From IMG/VR virus record IMGVR_UViG_3300028676_000016, positions 1-34,558 of that record: a DNA stretch of 34,558 bases; one strand, written 5' to 3'. This DNA is from a virus. The notes beneath the pieces are model-generated. The model searched no databases. It saw only the letters and a list, made by a program, of their open reading frames with translations, and was not told where the DNA came from. The position numbers and the translations under genes are program-made. Below, piece after piece: positions 3,039 to 34,558 of the stretch (its first letter is position 1; each line of letters starts with the position of its first letter).

Positions 3039-3118
3039 ACACTGAATTTATTTTAATGGAGTTCATCTATAGGTGGATTACTAAAAATAAATTATATTAA
3101 GAAAGGTGGATGTTAGAT

Positions 3119-3952
3119 ATGAAACTAACTAAAAACAATTTAACAAAGAAATTAGGAATAAAGGATAATGAGGTAATAGAATTAATAACAACTTATAATA
3201 ACTTATTACCAATATTATCAGAAGAAGGTGAAGGATTTTGTGTAAATGCAAGAGACTTACATAACCAATTATTAATAGGTAGGGATTTTTCTACTTGGAT
3301 AAAAGGTAATTTAGAATCTTTAGATATGAAAGTAGGAGAAGATTTTGACGCTTTCTTTAAAGGTGACGTGGATTTATCACAAGAAGAAATAGAAAATATG
3401 TCATCACAACAAAGAAGTAGACAAGGTATTTCAACAGAATATAATCTTACTTTAGAATGTGCAAAACAACTAGCTATGGTTATAGGAGCAATGCCAAAAA
3501 CAAACAAAGAGACAAAAGAACTAAGCAAGATTACAAGAATATATTTTATAGAAGTTGAAAGAATATTAAAGATGGCAGTCAAATGGGAATTAATAAGAAA
3601 ACCCGAAAAAGAAAATTATAAAATCATGTGTGAAGAACTTAAAAAGTATTTTCTTAGAAATTTTAATAAAGAACCTATGTTTTATGATTATAGTAATGAA
3701 GCTGATGCTTTAAATATGGTTTGCTTAGGTGCTAAAGCTAAAAAAATTAGAGAATATATTGACGCACAAGATAACAATACTAGAGATTGGTTAGAAATAA
3801 AATATAATACATATTTAGATAAATTACAAGATTTGAACACAATGTATCTTAAAATGAACTTTGACAAAGATAGAAGGTATGATTTGATTAAACAAGGATT
3901 TAAAGCATTGTATCCTGATGCGAGTTTCTTATTGATTTGTGGTGATAAATAA
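3119..3952 (+). CDS. antA: Phage antirepressor with AntA domain
   Basis: A 277-residue protein. The ATG at 3119 is preferred over the one at 3110 because AAAGGTGG ends 9 nt before it, whereas it abuts 3110. Residues ~42-117 match the AntA/AntB antirepressor domain: F-C-V-N-A-R-D-L-H, G-R-D-F-S-T-W-I, a short acidic insert, then T-E-Y-N-L-T-L-E-C-A-K-Q-L-A-M. The C-terminal half (~150-277) is helical and charged and probably mediates oligomerisation or repressor binding. AntA proteins counteract the phage repressor or act as DNA-binding regulators. The stop codon overlaps the next start by 1 bp, so the two genes are translationally coupled. Confidence 0.88.
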   Translation: MKLTKNNLTKKLGIKDNEVIELITTYNNLLPILSEEGEGFCVNARDLHNQLLIGRDFSTWIKGNLESLDMKVGEDFDAFFKGDVDLSQEEIENMSSQQRSRQGISTEYNLTLECAKQLAMVIGAMPKTNKETKELSKITRIYFIEVERILKMAVKWELIRKPEKENYKIMCEELKKYFLRNFNKEPMFYDYSNEADALNMVCLGAKAKKIREYIDAQDNNTRDWLEIKYNTYLDKLQDLNTMYLKMNFDKDRRYDLIKQGFKALYPDASFLLICGDK

Positions 3953-4140
3953 TGAATATAGAAAATTTAGAATTAAAAGGATATAAAAATTACAAAGAGT
4001 TATGTTTAACTTTAGATTGGGAAATAAGTGCTGGAAATACAAAGAAAAAACAGTTAAGAATATTAAGTGAACTATGTGATTTTGAAAAACAAGGAAACAA
4101 ATTTGTTGTAAAGGAAATTTGTTGTAAAGGAAATGTATGA
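3952..4140 (+). CDS. N-terminal half of a split phage regulatory protein
   Basis: A 62-residue product overlapping the antA stop by 1 bp (TAATG). The sequence (NYKELC, GNTKKKQL, GNKFVVKEI) looks like the N-terminal domain common in Firmicute phage regulatory/antirepressor-like proteins, which normally continues into a larger C-terminal domain in the same chain. Here translation stops at 4138-4140 soon after an exact 16-bp tandem duplication (4099-4130). Removing one copy joins this frame to the following ORF without a stop, giving a 377-residue protein. I therefore read it as the 5' part of one gene, split by a frameshift; whether the fragment alone works is unknown. Confidence 0.7.
   Translation: MNIENLELKGYKNYKELCLTLDWEISAGNTKKKQLRILSELCDFEKQGNKFVVKEICCKGNV
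4099..4130 (+). repeat. Exact 16-bp tandem duplication that shifts the reading frame
   Basis: The unit AAATTTGTTGTAAAGG occurs at 4099-4114 and again at 4115-4130, followed by AAAT, the start of a third copy. Sixteen is not a multiple of three, so gain or loss of one unit switches the reading frame of the surrounding gene. With one unit the sequence reads N-K-F-V-V-K-E-M-Y-D-N-K and continues in the downstream frame to 5101. Confidence 0.95.
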
Positions 4141-5101
4141 TAATAAGGATGTGTGTATGGATATGAGAGGGAAACAGGATAATAATACACCTAAGTATGT
4201 TGAGAGTATTGAATTGAATATTATTGGAGAATTACTTACTGAAGGACAAGATAACAAATATGTTGTTGGACGTGGAGTATTACTCAGAAATGTAGGTTTG
4301 ACTAATACAAACTATTCATATTGCAAAAGAAGACAAGATAAACTTGCTACATATTTAGAAGTTAAAAGGGAAGTAGTTAATGATTATTATACTTGTGTTG
4401 ATTCTATGATATTAGGTAATTTAGAAAAGGCTCTCAAGAATTTATCTAACAAAAAAGTAATACAGTTAAATAGCACATTATTGATTTGTAAAAATGTACT
4501 AACAGATGTTACATATCAACATATTACTCAAGTAGATGAATTTGATGAAGAAATAGAAATAATTAAGCCAGTTGTTCAATCTGATGTTATTTATGTTCAA
4601 GCTACAGACGAAGAAAGACATCTTATTAACGTTTCAGAAAAGAAAGTTTTAACTAATATGGGATTTGAAAAATTAACAGATGTATTCTTAAAAAATAAAT
4701 TAAAGCAATACTATGACCAATGTTATAAAGAAATAAGAAGAGAAATGAAGGACTTAAACTTTTATTTTCAAGCTTATGATATAATTTATGACTTTGATAT
4801 TTTGGCAAATGAATTAGAAAAACATGGGTATGATGATTGGAGTAAAGAACTCAAAAAAGAACAATCAGATATAATTAATAGTGGTGCTATGAATAGAATA
4901 ATGGATAATGCTGAAAAAAGAAAAGATAAAGCTACTCCTGATTTTGGTACACTATTAAAATCTGATAAAAAATATATTAGAACTCAAGATGAATATATAA
5001 CAGGTTATAATCAACTAAATAATAGTGTGATTAATGTGAATTCTAAAAATATTAAGGCTAATGTTAAGAAAGCTAAAGAAATTAAAAAGTTGAACGTTTA
5101 A
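4133..5101 (+). CDS. C-terminal part of the split phage regulatory protein
   Basis: A 322-residue frame overlapping the previous ORF by 8 bp. Its first ATG (4133) has only the duplicated GTAAAGGAA as a weak ribosome binding site, so it may be reinitiated after the upstream stop. A second candidate ATG (4157) follows AAGGATG. The region after the linker (about residues 22-80) has the pattern expected after the N-terminal domain of Firmicute phage regulators: I-E-L-N-I-I-G-E-L-L, then a conserved N-Y-S-Y-x-K. The rest is helical and lysine-rich with no catalytic motif. It is probably a DNA-binding regulator or antirepressor-like protein acting with AntA; function inferred from neighbours and fragment similarity. 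Confidence 0.65.
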   Translation: MYDNKDVCMDMRGKQDNNTPKYVESIELNIIGELLTEGQDNKYVVGRGVLLRNVGLTNTNYSYCKRRQDKLATYLEVKREVVNDYYTCVDSMILGNLEKALKNLSNKKVIQLNSTLLICKNVLTDVTYQHITQVDEFDEEIEIIKPVVQSDVIYVQATDEERHLINVSEKKVLTNMGFEKLTDVFLKNKLKQYYDQCYKEIRREMKDLNFYFQAYDIIYDFDILANELEKHGYDDWSKELKKEQSDIINSGAMNRIMDNAEKRKDKATPDFGTLLKSDKKYIRTQDEYITGYNQLNNSVINVNSKNIKANVKKAKEIKKLNV

Positions 5102-5189: not shown

Positions 5190-5345
5190 AAATAATCAAT
5201 AAGTTAATTCTATTTGTGAGTCTGAAAGACGAAACAAAAGAACAACCGATAGGGCGTTAGGTGTATTCACTAAAGTTTGGGAGTATATGAGTCTTGTAGC
5301 TAACGCTACGCTTTTCTTCCCTTACGGTCAGAGGATATAAATTTA
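5190..5345 (+). ncRNA. Candidate structured RNA upstream of a GIY-YIG-type nuclease gene
   Basis: No ORF covers 5102-5377. Within it, 5217-5335 is clearly richer in G+C than its surroundings and holds several short helices: GTCT/AGAC around 5219-5229, a bulged TTAG(G)TG/CACTAA hairpin near 5257-5273, and GTAGC-TAAC-GCTAC near 5298-5311. The left side carries the 14-mer AAAATATATAAAAT (5173-5186). Clustered helices in GC-rich sequence suggest a functional RNA or cis element, but I cannot assign it to a known class and did not compute a fold. Confidence 0.3.
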
Positions 5346-12104: not shown

Positions 12105-12136
12105 ATTAAAACAACTTAGAAAGGATGCGATTTAAT

Positions 12137-13102
12137 ATGGCTAATGAATTACAAAGAAGCAAACAAATAGATATGGGTGGAAAAGATATCGAAAATGAAA
12201 TAAATAAGGATAATCTTAAATTACTTCAAAAGTATAAAAGAGATATGGAAATAAGAGAACTATCACCAAAAACCATATATAATTATGAAACAGATATTAT
12301 AGCATGGCTTAAATACATAGTCAAAAAACAATTTAATCCGAGTATTAAAGAATTAACTGAAGACGATATTGAGGAATTCTTTTATTTTTGCAAAAAAGAA
12401 GGTAATAATACAGAAAGAATGAAACGCAGAATGTCCTCTATTAGTGCTTTTTATAAATTTTTAAGAAGAAAGAAAGAAATAACAGAAAATCCATGTGAGT
12501 TTATTCCTAGACCTAAAAAGGGATTGCCAGTTGTGACTCAAACTTTTTTAACTCCAGATCAAGTTAATGAGTTAATAAAGAAATTAGAAGAATGCGATGA
12601 TTTACAATTGCGTACATATGCTATGTTTAGTTTATCTACAATGGCTAGAGTTAATGCTGTAAGTTCTATACAATGGGAACAAATTGATTTTGAAGAAAGA
12701 GTTGTTGAAGATGTTCTAGAAAAAGAAGGAAAAATCGTAAATTTATATTTTTCAGACAATGTAAAATATTTATTATTACAATTAAAGAAATATAGAGAAG
12801 AAAATAATATAGAGTCACCTTATGTATTTATAACAAAATATAATGGAGCATATGATAAAGTAACGACTGGAACATTAGGCGATTGGACTAGGAAATGTGG
12901 TGAAATGATAAATGTTTTAACGCTCCATCCACATGATTGGAGACATTCGGGATCTCAGCTACTTTCATTAAATGGATGTCCAATTGAAAAAATTTCTGAA
13001 CTTTTGAACCATTCAGGGCTAGATGTAACAAAAAACCATTATTTACGTCAAGATAAGAAAAAAATTAGAGCAGAGAAAGATAAGTATACTACTCAATTCT
13101 AA
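12137..13102 (+). CDS. int: Tyrosine recombinase (phage integrase)
   Basis: A 321-residue site-specific recombinase. The ATG at 12137 is preferred over 12125, which abuts AGAAAGG. Residues ~25-112 are the SAM-like core-binding domain (S-P-K-T-I-Y-N-Y). Residues ~135-315 are the catalytic domain with the full set: Arg171, Lys199, His266 and Arg269 in HDWR, His292 and nucleophile Tyr302. It is compact, like XerC/D and many phage integrases, with no extra arm-binding domain. Located downstream of the resolvase and followed by an intergenic stretch with a 12-bp inverted repeat where an attachment site could lie. It should integrate/excise the phage or resolve multimers if the prophage is a plasmid. 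Confidence 0.92.
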   Translation: MANELQRSKQIDMGGKDIENEINKDNLKLLQKYKRDMEIRELSPKTIYNYETDIIAWLKYIVKKQFNPSIKELTEDDIEEFFYFCKKEGNNTERMKRRMSSISAFYKFLRRKKEITENPCEFIPRPKKGLPVVTQTFLTPDQVNELIKKLEECDDLQLRTYAMFSLSTMARVNAVSSIQWEQIDFEERVVEDVLEKEGKIVNLYFSDNVKYLLLQLKKYREENNIESPYVFITKYNGAYDKVTTGTLGDWTRKCGEMINVLTLHPHDWRHSGSQLLSLNGCPIEKISELLNHSGLDVTKNHYLRQDKKKIRAEKDKYTTQF

Positions 13103-29720: not shown

Positions 29721-29768
29721 ATAATAGCATTATTTGGTTATCGTGTCAATTATTATTTTATATATTTT
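29721..29768 (-). promoter_or_regulatory. Sigma-A promoter with upstream AAAATATATAAAAT box
   Basis: Minus strand: box at 29768-29755, 5 bp, TTGACA (29749-29744), 17-bp spacer, TATTAT (29726-29721). The box overlaps the stop codon of the topoisomerase A gene (29767). First of two tandem promoters about 110 bp apart. Confidence 0.85.
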
Positions 29769-31809
29769 ATTGTTTATTGGCGATTAACTTCAATACTCTA
29801 TCTTTGCTTTGTCTACAATTATGAATAAATGATCCAGTATTATTTAAACTACCTTTATATTTATCAGCAGTAATATTGTACTCAACATCTTTCTTCTTTT
29901 GAGTTTTAATACTTATAGAATCTTTATATTCACATATTCCAACAACTTCATTGTTTTCAAACTTAGCTGATTCTATTTTGATATATTGTTTAGTTCTACC
30001 TACCATATCATTACTATTTAGTATTAAAACTTTACCCTCAGCAGTTAATATAACTAATTGTTGATTTTCTATAACTACTTTAATTATCTTCTCGTCTTTG
30101 TTTAAATCTAATAGATTGGGAATAAATTCACCCATCTCACTAGGTTTACATGTTTCTATATCATTAGCTTTAACATTAAATACTCTGCCTTGGTTTGATA
30201 ATAGAATAATTGTATTAGTATTATTAGCAGACAATATTTCTAAAACTTTATCATTATCTTTTAACTTTTGTTGCTCTGAAAATACTCTATTCTTTTTTAA
30301 ATATGATTTAGTTAAAACTATTTGTATTCCATATTCTTCTACTATATTAGTTTTTGACACCCTAGTTTTATCATTGTATATTATTTCAGTTAATCTTGGT
30401 TTACCAAATTGCTTTTTAATGTCTTCTAATTGAGATATTATAATATTATGTATAAACTTCATATCAGATTTTTCAATGTTTAATTGTTTAATTTCGTCTT
30501 CTAATTTAGATATATTTTTGATTTTATTTATAATCCACTCTTCATTGATATTAATTAATCTAATAGTAGAAATATATTCAGCTTGCTCTTGAGTTAATTT
30601 AAAATATTCAATTAAATTTTCTAAAGCAACACTTTCTTTCTTTGATGTTTTTATTATTTCAATTGCTTTATCTAAATCTTGATTTACTATTTGTAACCCG
30701 TATAAACTATGTAATGTTTTTTCTTTTTCTGCTATATCGTATTCATATTCTTTAATTATACAAGTTTCTCTATGAGTTACCCATTTAGTTATAATATTTT
30801 CTAAAGTCATTAATTGTGGAGTTTTATTATCTAAATCTAAAAGAGTAAAGTTACAAGCAAATTTGCTTTCAAATGGTGTATACTTTCTAAGTTTCGCTAC
30901 AAATTTATTAATATCAGTATTCTTTTTAATATAAACATCTAAAGCAATACCATCTTTATCTGAAGCATTGTGATAATCAGTTATTTCTTTAAACAACCCT
31001 TTTTCAATGCATTCTGCTACTTTATCTTCTATGTTTTCAATATATGTTTCATATGGGACTTCATATATAGTTATTTTTCCTTTCTTTTCATCATATTTAT
31101 ATTTTCCTATAATAGAAAAACTTCCTTTTCCTGTTTTATATATCTTTTCAAATAATTCTTTATCATATGGAATTTGACCACCTAAAGAGAAATCAGGACA
31201 TTTTAATAATTCTATAGATTTATCTATATCTTGTGTTTGTATATATGATATAAAACTATCGCAAGTTTCAATTAAATTATGTGCAGGAATTTTACTTGCT
31301 TCACCTACAGCAATACTTTGACTTGTATTTGTTAAAACATTTGGGATTATTGAAGGAAGTGTAAGTGGCTCATTCTCTGTATTATCAAAATTTCTTTTAA
31401 ATTCAACATTGTTTTTGTTAATATTGTGCAATAAAGATTTACCATATTTAGATAATTTACATTCTATATATCTCGGACTAGCACCCACACCATCTTTTTT
31501 TCGTTTATCTCCAAAACTTCCTTTAGGCTCTAAATAGAAATTATTTAAACTATTATTTGCCATATTCTTCATAGACTTATACAACGGCATATCACCAAAG
31601 ACATAAAATACCATTGTATAAGCTCCAGCTCTTAATAATTTAATAAAAGTCTTTTCTGGATTAATCCCATTTTTATGTAATGCCCATTCAACTTTTCTAT
31701 GAACAGGAAGTAGTCCATCGGTTACAGAAGGTATATTATTTACTAATATTTCTCCTGCATATGGAATAAATTCATCTTCCATTACTTCAATTATATCTCT
31801 TTCAATCAT
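29767..31809 (-). CDS. Type II DNA topoisomerase, GyrA/ParC-like subunit
   Basis: 680 residues from ATG 31809 (AGGAG 8 nt upstream; the GTG at 31818 overlaps that site). This is the DNA-cleaving subunit. The winged-helix core is at ~15-140, with D-G-L-L-P-V-H-R-K (31-39) and the catalytic Tyr114 in S-P-R-Y-I-E. The tower and long coiled coil follow to ~460. The C-terminal ~220 residues have short beta-blade-like strands (I-I-L-L-S-N-Q-G-R-V, L-V-I-L-T-A-E-G-K-V) of a reduced pinwheel. It begins 11 bp after the end of the B subunit and should form the heterotetramer with it, relieving supercoils in phage replication. It is shorter than host GyrA (about 800-830). Confidence 0.9.
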   Translation of the reverse strand: MIERDIIEVMEDEFIPYAGEILVNNIPSVTDGLLPVHRKVEWALHKNGINPEKTFIKLLRAGAYTMVFYVFGDMPLYKSMKNMANNSLNNFYLEPKGSFGDKRKKDGVGASPRYIECKLSKYGKSLLHNINKNNVEFKRNFDNTENEPLTLPSIIPNVLTNTSQSIAVGEASKIPAHNLIETCDSFISYIQTQDIDKSIELLKCPDFSLGGQIPYDKELFEKIYKTGKGSFSIIGKYKYDEKKGKITIYEVPYETYIENIEDKVAECIEKGLFKEITDYHNASDKDGIALDVYIKKNTDINKFVAKLRKYTPFESKFACNFTLLDLDNKTPQLMTLENIITKWVTHRETCIIKEYEYDIAEKEKTLHSLYGLQIVNQDLDKAIEIIKTSKKESVALENLIEYFKLTQEQAEYISTIRLININEEWIINKIKNISKLEDEIKQLNIEKSDMKFIHNIIISQLEDIKKQFGKPRLTEIIYNDKTRVSKTNIVEEYGIQIVLTKSYLKKNRVFSEQQKLKDNDKVLEILSANNTNTIILLSNQGRVFNVKANDIETCKPSEMGEFIPNLLDLNKDEKIIKVVIENQQLVILTAEGKVLILNSNDMVGRTKQYIKIESAKFENNEVVGICEYKDSISIKTQKKKDVEYNITADKYKGSLNNTGSFIHNCRQSKDRVLKLIANKQ

Positions 31810-31820
31810 ATCATTCACTC

Positions 31821-32034
31821 CTAATCTAATTCATTTAAATCAACATTAACTATTCTTTCTCTTATAAATGCTTTTCTATTATCTATATCATCACCCATAA
31901 GCATATTGAAATAATAATCAATTTGCTCTTCTTCTTTTTCATTGTATTTTATTTTTATAAATGATTTTTCTCTTGCTTTTGGACTTAATACATAATCCCA
32001 AAATTCATCTTTATTGAATTCTCCTACGCTTAAT
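31821..32034 (-). CDS. Topoisomerase GyrB-like subunit, exon 2
   Basis: The last 70 residues of the B subunit, downstream of a group I intron. It reads L-S-V-G-E-F-N-K-D-E-F-W-D-Y-V-L, and ends with the conserved F-N-M-L-M-G-D-D and R-K-A-F-I-R-E-R as in GyrB/ParE C-termini. There is no start codon or ribosome binding site; it is readable only when joined to exon 1. With splice points GGGTT / ATTAAGC the junction reads K-K-G-L-L-S-V-G-E-F, matching the family K-G-L-G motif region. The boundary is good to within a few bases. Confidence 0.82.
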
Positions 32035-33100
32035 CTTTATGTTTCCATAAAGGCAGACTATATCTTGTGTGTATGATATACAACACCTTACCGTTTCGGT
32101 TCTCATAGGATTCGTTTCCTAAAACCTAGACATGTACCAATAATGTCCCTACTTCCCAACAACGGGAATAGTCGTTACAGATTTTAAATATGTGTTTTAA
32201 TTTATTTATATGTATTAATTTGCTAATAAATATGTCCAATTTTTATCATACCAAATAGCAATGAAACTGTTTTTGTGTGAACGTCCTATATAATCTTTCC
32301 ATACTTCATTTAATTCATCGCCCATATCTCTTCGTTTTCTTATATATATGACTTCTACCTCAGTATATTTAGAAGCCCTATTCTTTTCGCCTGGTCTACT
32401 TTGTCCTTTTGCAAAATGCCAATCTTTATTTTCTTCATCATATACATCATAGTGAATATCTTTAAATGTATCTCCATGCCAAGCTTTTTTAAACGCTCTA
32501 TGAGTTATTAAATCCTTGTAATATATTTCATAAGCTATGTCTATATATAATTTCTTTTCTTTGTATAATTCTCTTATAAAATATACATCTTCATTTGACA
32601 AAACTCTTCTTCCTGAAGCACCTAAAACATTATTATACATTAATTCGTTTAATTTGTTATTTCTAATCAATTTAGATTCCATTCTACTAATTTCTATCTT
32701 ATCGTCTGATTCAAATAATTTTTCAAGTTTAAAATTTTTCATTCTATATTTTATTATCTCTTCATATAATTTTGGACATCTTTTATAATTTTGCTTATAA
32801 TTATCATCTTCACAATTATGTATATGATTTTGCATTCTTTTATCAAAATTGGACGTACTACCAATATAAAATTTATTGTTTATTGTATTTATTATTTTGT
32901 ATAATGTTTCCGTATAAACTCACTCCTTATATCTTTTAATTTATTTAAACACATATTTAACTTTCCACGGTATTACCATATCCTTTTAGTATAGGAGTTA
33001 GGCTCTCTTACCACCTTAGTATTTCTACTTGGTTGACCGTTAGCTATGCAATTACATAACCCCCATGGTATTGGGAAAAATAAGTAAGGGCTAGTATGTC
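32035..33100 (-). other. Group I intron in the topoisomerase B gene
   Basis: On the minus strand the 5' exon ends AAGGGTT and the intron soon offers AGCCCTT, giving P1 with a U-G pair near the junction. Core helices include ACC-A-AGTA-GAAA-TACT-AA-GGT (P4/P5-like), GACTAT pairing with ATAGTC (P7-like) and ACCG-AAA-CGGT between them (P8-like). A terminal CTTTATG-GAAA-CATAAAG hairpin ends in G at 32035, the expected last intron base. An endonuclease ORF lies in a loop. Protein continuity across the gap is the strongest proof. The 5' site could be off by 1-2 nt. About 1066 nt long. Confidence 0.85.
32215..32913 (-). CDS. Intron-encoded GIY-YIG homing endonuclease, non-ATG start
   Basis: The frame upstream of the first ATG (32835) encodes T-L-Y-K-I-I-N-T-I-N-N-K-F-Y-I-G-S-T, the catalytic GIY-YIG motif, then N-F-D-K-R-M. 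The true protein therefore begins near 32913-32919, about 232 residues. Upstream AAGGAG (32928-32923) is followed only by GTT, TAT and ACG in frame after a TGA, so the start would be ACG (9-nt spacing) or another non-standard codon. The middle and C-terminus contain a helical DNA-binding region with two similar repeats: L-S-N-E-D-V-Y-F-I-R-E-L-Y and Y-T-E-V-E-V-I-Y-I-R-K-R-R. It should cut the intronless topoisomerase allele. Start codon is the open point; the copy could be decayed. Confidence 0.75.
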   Translation of the reverse strand, partial: TETLYKIINTINNKFYIGSTSNFDKRMQNHIHNCEDDNYKQNYKRCPKLYEEIIKYRMKNFKLEKLFESDDKIEISRMESKLIRNNKLNELMYNNVLGASGRRVLSNEDVYFIRELYKEKKLYIDIAYEIYYKDLITHRAFKKAWHGDTFKDIHYDVYDEENKDWHFAKGQSRPGEKNRASKYTEVEVIYIRKRRDMGDELNEVWKDYIGRSHKNSFIAIWYDKNWTYLLAN

Positions 33101-34558
33101 AACCCTTTTTTAATGCCAATTGAGTCAATATTTTTGTTTCCTAATTTGTCAATTAACTTTTGTTTTTCTTCTTCGTTATATACATAATGTGTGTTACCTT
33201 TTTTATCTACTATTTCAAATCTAGGAGATATTACTATATAAACTCTACCTTGTTTAACTAATGTAGGCATATATTTATATAAAAATGTTAATATTGATAA
33301 ATTTATTCCATGTCCAAATGCATCAGAATCACATAACAAACCAATAGAACCATATCTTAATTTATTTATATCAAAAGTTTCAATATCTTTAAAATGTTTT
33401 AATTCTGATTTTGGTATTTCAATTCCACATCCCATTGCTTGGATGATTCCTAAAGCTGGAGTATTATTCAATACATCACTAATACTACAAGGTTTTTTAA
33501 GCGAGTTAATAAATCTACCACGCAAACCTAGACAACCCATAATAGTATTATCAAATGAATCTGCTATTGTTGAGTTAGCACTAAGTCCTTCATCAACTAA
33601 AAATATTCTATCTTCAAGTTTGCTGTTTTTCATATCACAATCTCTTAGTCCTTCAATTTTTAATTTTAAGCCTTTTTTTACTCCTTGAAGCTTATTTTTA
33701 ATATCTGATTTGGTTTTTTGTGCTGTATCATTAGCTCTTTTATTAATTAATATTTGGTCTGCCAACCTTTTAGCATCTAATGGATTTTCCATTAGGTATA
33801 CACTTAGTTTATCTTCTAAATCTTGATTTATAAATTGTTTTATAAAGGGATTGTCTATAGATAGTTTTGTTTGATTAGCGTAGCTTGTTTTAGTTGAACG
33901 ACTTAATAATATACAAATTAAACTATCTTCTATGTCCTCAAATTTGATTTTTTCACCTTTCTTATACATTTTATTAGATTCAATATATTTATGTAATGAA
34001 TTGGTTAAGGCTTGTCTAACTGATTTTGTTGTGACATTCAAATTTAACTCTGTTAACTCACTACTATTATGATAAAATTCTTGTAGTTGAGTATTGTTAT
34101 TAAATGTAAAAGCAATATTATAATCCATTTTATATATTGGTTTTGTTGGTACGTCTTGTCCTTCTGCTTCGCCTTTAAATTCAATAATATCAATCATACT
34201 ATCATCATTAGTTAACTCTTTAATATATGCTGATATATTATCATAGTTATAAATGTTTTTTGTATTATTCAATTTATCATCAAATATCAACTCGATTCCA
34301 TTATTAACCATTGCTTGTTTTCTTAATTTAGTTTCTATCCATTCAGTAGGTATATCAATTGATGTAAACACATTCAAATCAGGTTTATATGATATTATTG
34401 TTCCACTTAATCCTTCTATGTAACTATTTTCTATTAATAATACTTTTTCTCCTTCATCCTTAGTTAAATGATAGTCATTATCTTCTTTTACAAATTCTCC
34501 ATTTATTTTATCAATAGGTCTTCCTTCTTTAAATTTAAGAGTGTGTTTCAAACCATTT
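33101..34558 (-). CDS. Topoisomerase GyrB-like subunit, exon 1, cut by the window end
   Basis: About 486 codons of the ATP-hydrolysing B subunit. The 5' end, with the main ATP-binding residues, lies beyond 34558; the frame is open to the edge and the TTG at 34551 is not the real start. The visible part begins in the ATPase/transducer region (G-T-I-I-S-Y-K-P-D). It continues into the TOPRIM domain with V-D-E-G-L-S-A-N-S and C-D-S-D-A-F-G-H-G, the metal-binding D-x-D. It ends ...D-S-I-G-I-K-K-G-L, where the intron enters. Without splicing it would stop three codons later. Pairs with the A subunit downstream. Confidence 0.88.

Follow-up and report, generated by a model that had tools for sequence, protein, structure and literature searches.

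We consider it likely that a recent 16-bp tandem duplication frameshifted the gene for a two-domain phage protein of the phrog_36702 family, and that it arose as an ordinary copying error rather than as a working switch. The duplication lies in a 34,558-base linear virus record (IMG/VR IMGVR_UViG_3300028676_000016), which was analysed over its full length and is referred to here as the window. On the + strand, the unit AAATTTGTTGTAAAGG occupies positions 4099–4114 and is repeated exactly, head to tail, at 4115–4130, followed directly by a partial third copy, AAAT, at 4131–4134. This arrangement, described in the initial annotation, was confirmed by inspection of the sequence and by Tandem Repeats Finder, which reported an array of 2.25 copies in 36 bases with 100% matches and a score of 72, above that of every other array among the 47 detected in the window. 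The array at 4099–4134 is the sole perfect tandem duplication with a period of 10–60 in the 34.6 kb. Such an exact 16-bp duplication is not expected by chance: no perfect duplication of period 16 appeared in 30 first-order Markov shuffles of the window, and no repeat run of at least 16 at periods 10–60 was seen in 10 shuffles.

Through the 16-base shift, one ancestral gene has become two ORFs on the + strand, at 3952–4140 (62 aa) and 4133–5101 (322 aa), which overlap by 8 bases. The first copy of the unit encodes KFVVK plus one base and the second shifts the reading frame; the 62-aa product is native to residue 55 and then reads ICCKGNV before a stop, while the 322-aa ORF starts in the linker and carries the rest of the protein. 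Removal of one unit gives a single frame of 377 codons ((1150−16)/3−1 = 377), and the 377-residue fusion that had been proposed thus follows arithmetically. The two ORFs match consecutive parts of the phrog_36702 profile, which has 412 positions and the PHROG annotation "unknown function": the 62-aa ORF matches positions 12–69 (E 3.4e-8), covering the N-terminal domain, and the 322-aa ORF matches positions 83–390 (E 4.4e-22), covering the C-terminal part. Neither the split gene nor its relatives matched a Pfam family, and a PDB sequence search with the protein returned no match. Programmed frameshifting was considered and not adopted as an explanation of the two frames; ORF 4133–5101 lies in the +1 frame, and no recognised slippery site was found at the overlap by inspection.

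The intact state of the gene is seen in its relatives. A single ORF of 373 aa is present in L005 and L006 (86% nucleotide identity to the window), one of 376 aa in L007 and L008 (82% nucleotide identity) and one of 384 aa in L009 and L010 (45% amino-acid identity). All 15 aligned relatives match phrog_36702, of which Geobacillus virus E3 GP200 (AJA41519.1) is a known example. They have the same two-domain layout as the window protein, which, unlike its relatives with their single uninterrupted frame, is cut in two by the duplication. When L007 is aligned with the window at the DNA level, a single gap appears that is exactly 16 bases long, and L007 stays in frame through KFIIKEIYDNKEVCMDMRGKQ at the window's break point. 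The 16 alignment columns of the second copy are absent from L005–L010, and there is no repeat at the site in any of them. A wider profile search found 18 loci, with both parts in one open frame in 17; the remaining locus, L043, has the N-terminal domain alone in common. These results uphold the view that there was one ancestral protein, and a check for homologues that are always two separate proteins found the opposite. An ancient split gene was rejected on the basis of the intact relatives and the lack of decay described below. Scans of genome contigs addressing the host question yielded no relatives, and in plasmid and phage collections the matches were limited to Geobacillus virus E3 and, at ~30% identity, a single record from Bacillus velezensis.

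Several other observations were made among the relatives. First, the N-terminal domain of L005 (2812–3010) is very different from that of the window (3952–4140) while the C-terminal part is 94% identical, a pattern that would fit a swap of the N-terminal domain at this hinge. Second, the N-terminal module (KNYKELC...) seems to be a mobile domain, since it also begins proteins in L030 (3377–4312) and L043 (2001–2588) whose remainders resemble, by eye, GIY-YIG and HNH/AP2-type endonucleases. Third, another exact short tandem duplication, of 14 bp present twice, lies at 1871–1898 of L027, upstream of a phrog_36702 homologue. Lastly, the homologue in L033 (1960–2080), one of the 17 with both parts in a single frame, has an open frame with no ATG, GTG or TTG at the expected start; translation may begin at ATT, or the start may have been lost.

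Most likely, replication slippage produced the duplication, the two sites involved being AAAT words separated by 16 bases. In L007, a one-copy relative, AAAT bounds the 16-base stretch on either side with the same spacing as in the window, so that slippage or microhomology repair could have produced the second copy, and AAAT at both unit ends is the likely microhomology used. An exact duplication bounded by microhomology that is already present in an undisrupted relative is compatible with this origin but is not proof of it, as such pairs are common: the window contains 303 four-base identities 16 apart, and nothing special would therefore be needed for the duplication to arise. Once formed, the second copy would frameshift the gene into two overlapping ORFs with the break at the junction of the N-terminal domain and the linker, and the function of the protein would probably be lost or altered. 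Slippage between direct repeats of 20 bases should remove one copy at a low rate, and reversion would occur solely at this low rate, that of any short two-copy duplication, with no evolved switch.

To characterize the allele beyond the window, we compared it with other IMG/VR contigs. Three further contigs with different taxon numbers carry the same two copies and are 100% identical around the site, with 1 difference to the window in 21,425 bases, 0 in 5,962 and 0 in 5,347. With the window included, the two-copy state is thus found in all four assembled contigs, and because they share it with 0 or 1 other differences, the allele is clonal; the four contigs are separate assemblies that represent a single clone and may come from a single site. 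The two-copy form has apparently become the majority allele in the clone. The initial annotation had suggested that both states may coexist, and an exact scan of IMG/VR for the one-copy form found no contig of this phage with it, in a searched set from which near-identical records may be absent; a looser scan, with a gap range that admitted one copy and excluded two, returned L007 and L008 only. An assembler reports the majority state of each sample, so a rare one-copy form would not appear in contigs.

The coding pattern shows no long decay in either part of the split gene. With L007 as the outgroup, 30 synonymous and 8 nonsynonymous changes fall on the window branch over 300 C-terminal codons, compared to 30 and 9 on the branch of the intact L005 over the same codons. 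The dN/dS of the N-terminal part against L007 is 0.24, and neither part contains extra stops. Since there is neither decay nor an extra stop, the coding sequence suggests that either the duplication is young or both parts are still in use. The absence of decay is also compatible with a gene that reverts frequently and with a split gene that still works.

To place the break in the protein, a structure model was made for the intact relative L007 with a 15-sequence alignment (mean pLDDT 86.5). In the model, two helices and a pair of strands form the N-terminal domain at residues 14–56, with the last strand at 50–56; a linker with pLDDT below 50 follows at residues 60–72, and a long C-terminal part spans residues 77–368. 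By this model, the last N-terminal strand would be coded by the duplicated unit and kept in the first ORF, while the second ORF would start in the linker. The break is thus predicted to sit just before a disordered hinge, with each ORF holding a whole domain, and the two domains, being left whole, could exist as separate chains. A break placed at random along the gene is somewhat likelier to damage a domain than to leave both whole, which counts against an accident. The N-terminal domain may be called winged-helix-like from the order of its predicted elements, a label with no fold match behind it. In a PDB fold search the L007 model matched nothing at E below 0.001, and matches in a viral structure library were uncharacterised phage proteins with low TM-scores, apart from one labelled thymidylate kinase. 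Assignment of a function by fold was abandoned on these results.

The genomic setting bears on the earlier suggestion that the gene is a lysogeny regulator next to antA. Directly upstream is indeed a gene for a 280-aa AntA/AntB-domain protein (3110–3952, + strand); its stop codon shares one base with the start codon of the split gene (TAATG). This neighbour is not conserved: in L005 (1910–2812) and L007 (1946–2836) a different, unrelated gene, GIY-YIG/T5orf172-like by our reading, precedes the phrog_36702 gene, with the one-base TAATG overlap kept. Holin and endolysin genes lie further upstream of the split gene and structural genes downstream, and the window carries an integrase at 12125–13102. 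Pfam detected no regulator domain within the split gene, AntA being confined to the neighbouring gene. With a family of unknown function in PHROG, no Pfam family, no PDB fold and a position between holin/endolysin and structural genes, the regulator assignment is unsupported, and none of these observations links the gene to lysogeny control.

Two further features of the window were observed. Just after the phrog_36702 gene, at 5210–5335 on the + strand, is a conserved intergenic element of ~130 nt with the core AACAACYGATARGGCGTTAG ... GTCTTGTAGCTAACGCTACGCTTT. It is 91% identical in L005 and 78% identical over 100 nt in L009; its core is also found in L007 and, in another gene context, in L058, and its second half is 96% identical over 48 nt in L037, again after a phrog_36702 gene. 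Rfam gave no match anywhere in the window, this element included, at E up to 1, and the single-sequence fold of the element was not unusual (z −0.84); a few compensatory pairs were seen in 5 sequences. Separately, a topoisomerase II matching one profile, phrog_28877, is encoded on the − strand (29767–34551) in two ORFs, 33091–34551 and 29767–31818, between which lies an unrelated 206-aa ORF (32215–32835), perhaps an inserted homing-type gene.

An unlikely alternative to a recent accident is that the split is tolerated or useful, with both ORFs translated and the domains acting as separate or re-associating chains, the second ORF being started either at ATG 4133 in the overlap, through reinitiation, or at the internal ATG 4157. 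The 8-base overlap of the ORFs, the lack of decay in either part and the two predicted whole domains are in line with it. An SD-like AAAGG lies 2 nt before ATG 4133, a spacing too close to the ATG. A possible internal start for a C-terminal product (MDMRGKQ...) lies at 4145–4159 on the + strand, with AAGGA 7 nt before ATG 4157 as weak evidence, and L007 and L005 have a comparable internal site; at −5.8 kcal/mol, however, it would rank fourth beside 28 ATGs downstream in the ORF and is no stronger than several chance ATGs there, and the linker of more distant relatives has no matching conserved ATG. The sites at 4133 and 4157 are no more than suggestive of translation of the second ORF.

Improbable, too, is the phase-variation device envisaged by the initial annotation, in which gain or loss of one 16-bp unit would toggle reversibly between full-length and split protein. 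In its favour, an exact repeat disrupts the frame, loss of one unit would give the 377-codon frame, and neither half shows decay. As in simple-sequence contingency loci, an out-of-frame tandem repeat lies inside a coding sequence. Unlike those loci, the window has two full copies rather than a multi-copy array, there is no repeat in the relatives with nucleotide identities of 82% and 86% or elsewhere among L005–L010, and a single repeat-number state was observed among the four assembled contigs, a comparison at the level of contigs and not of reads. The scans for a one-copy form likewise speak against a switch, and neither a recombinase target nor a repeat array was noticed nearby. A more elaborate version, in which loss or gain of one unit at the domain hinge would switch a DNA-binding-like protein between joined and split forms that are both functional, is very improbable. 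Finally, an assembly or sequencing artefact, conceivable for a metagenomic contig, is extremely improbable and was rejected because three more contigs agree with the window at the site and the 36-base array is below standard short-read length.

A precedent for reversibility comes from fission yeast, in which microhomology-mediated tandem duplications that can revert occur inside the coding region of ssp1 (PMC13207564), and this favours a switch to the extent that the anatomy is shared. In both cases a short exact tandem duplication in a coding region, with a few bases of microhomology, causes a premature stop (PMC13207564), and loss of one copy could in principle revert either. Unlike the yeast duplications, that of the window is in a phage gene and has been seen in the duplicated state alone; the anatomy is alike, and reversion may be possible. 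The preferred reading, a recent accidental duplication, offers a well-documented natural case in which a short tandem duplication disrupts a gene of an environmental phage clone, and the intact relatives allow it to be dated and interpreted. If both states were found in one population, a two-copy, microhomology-born duplication would constitute a working phage switch.
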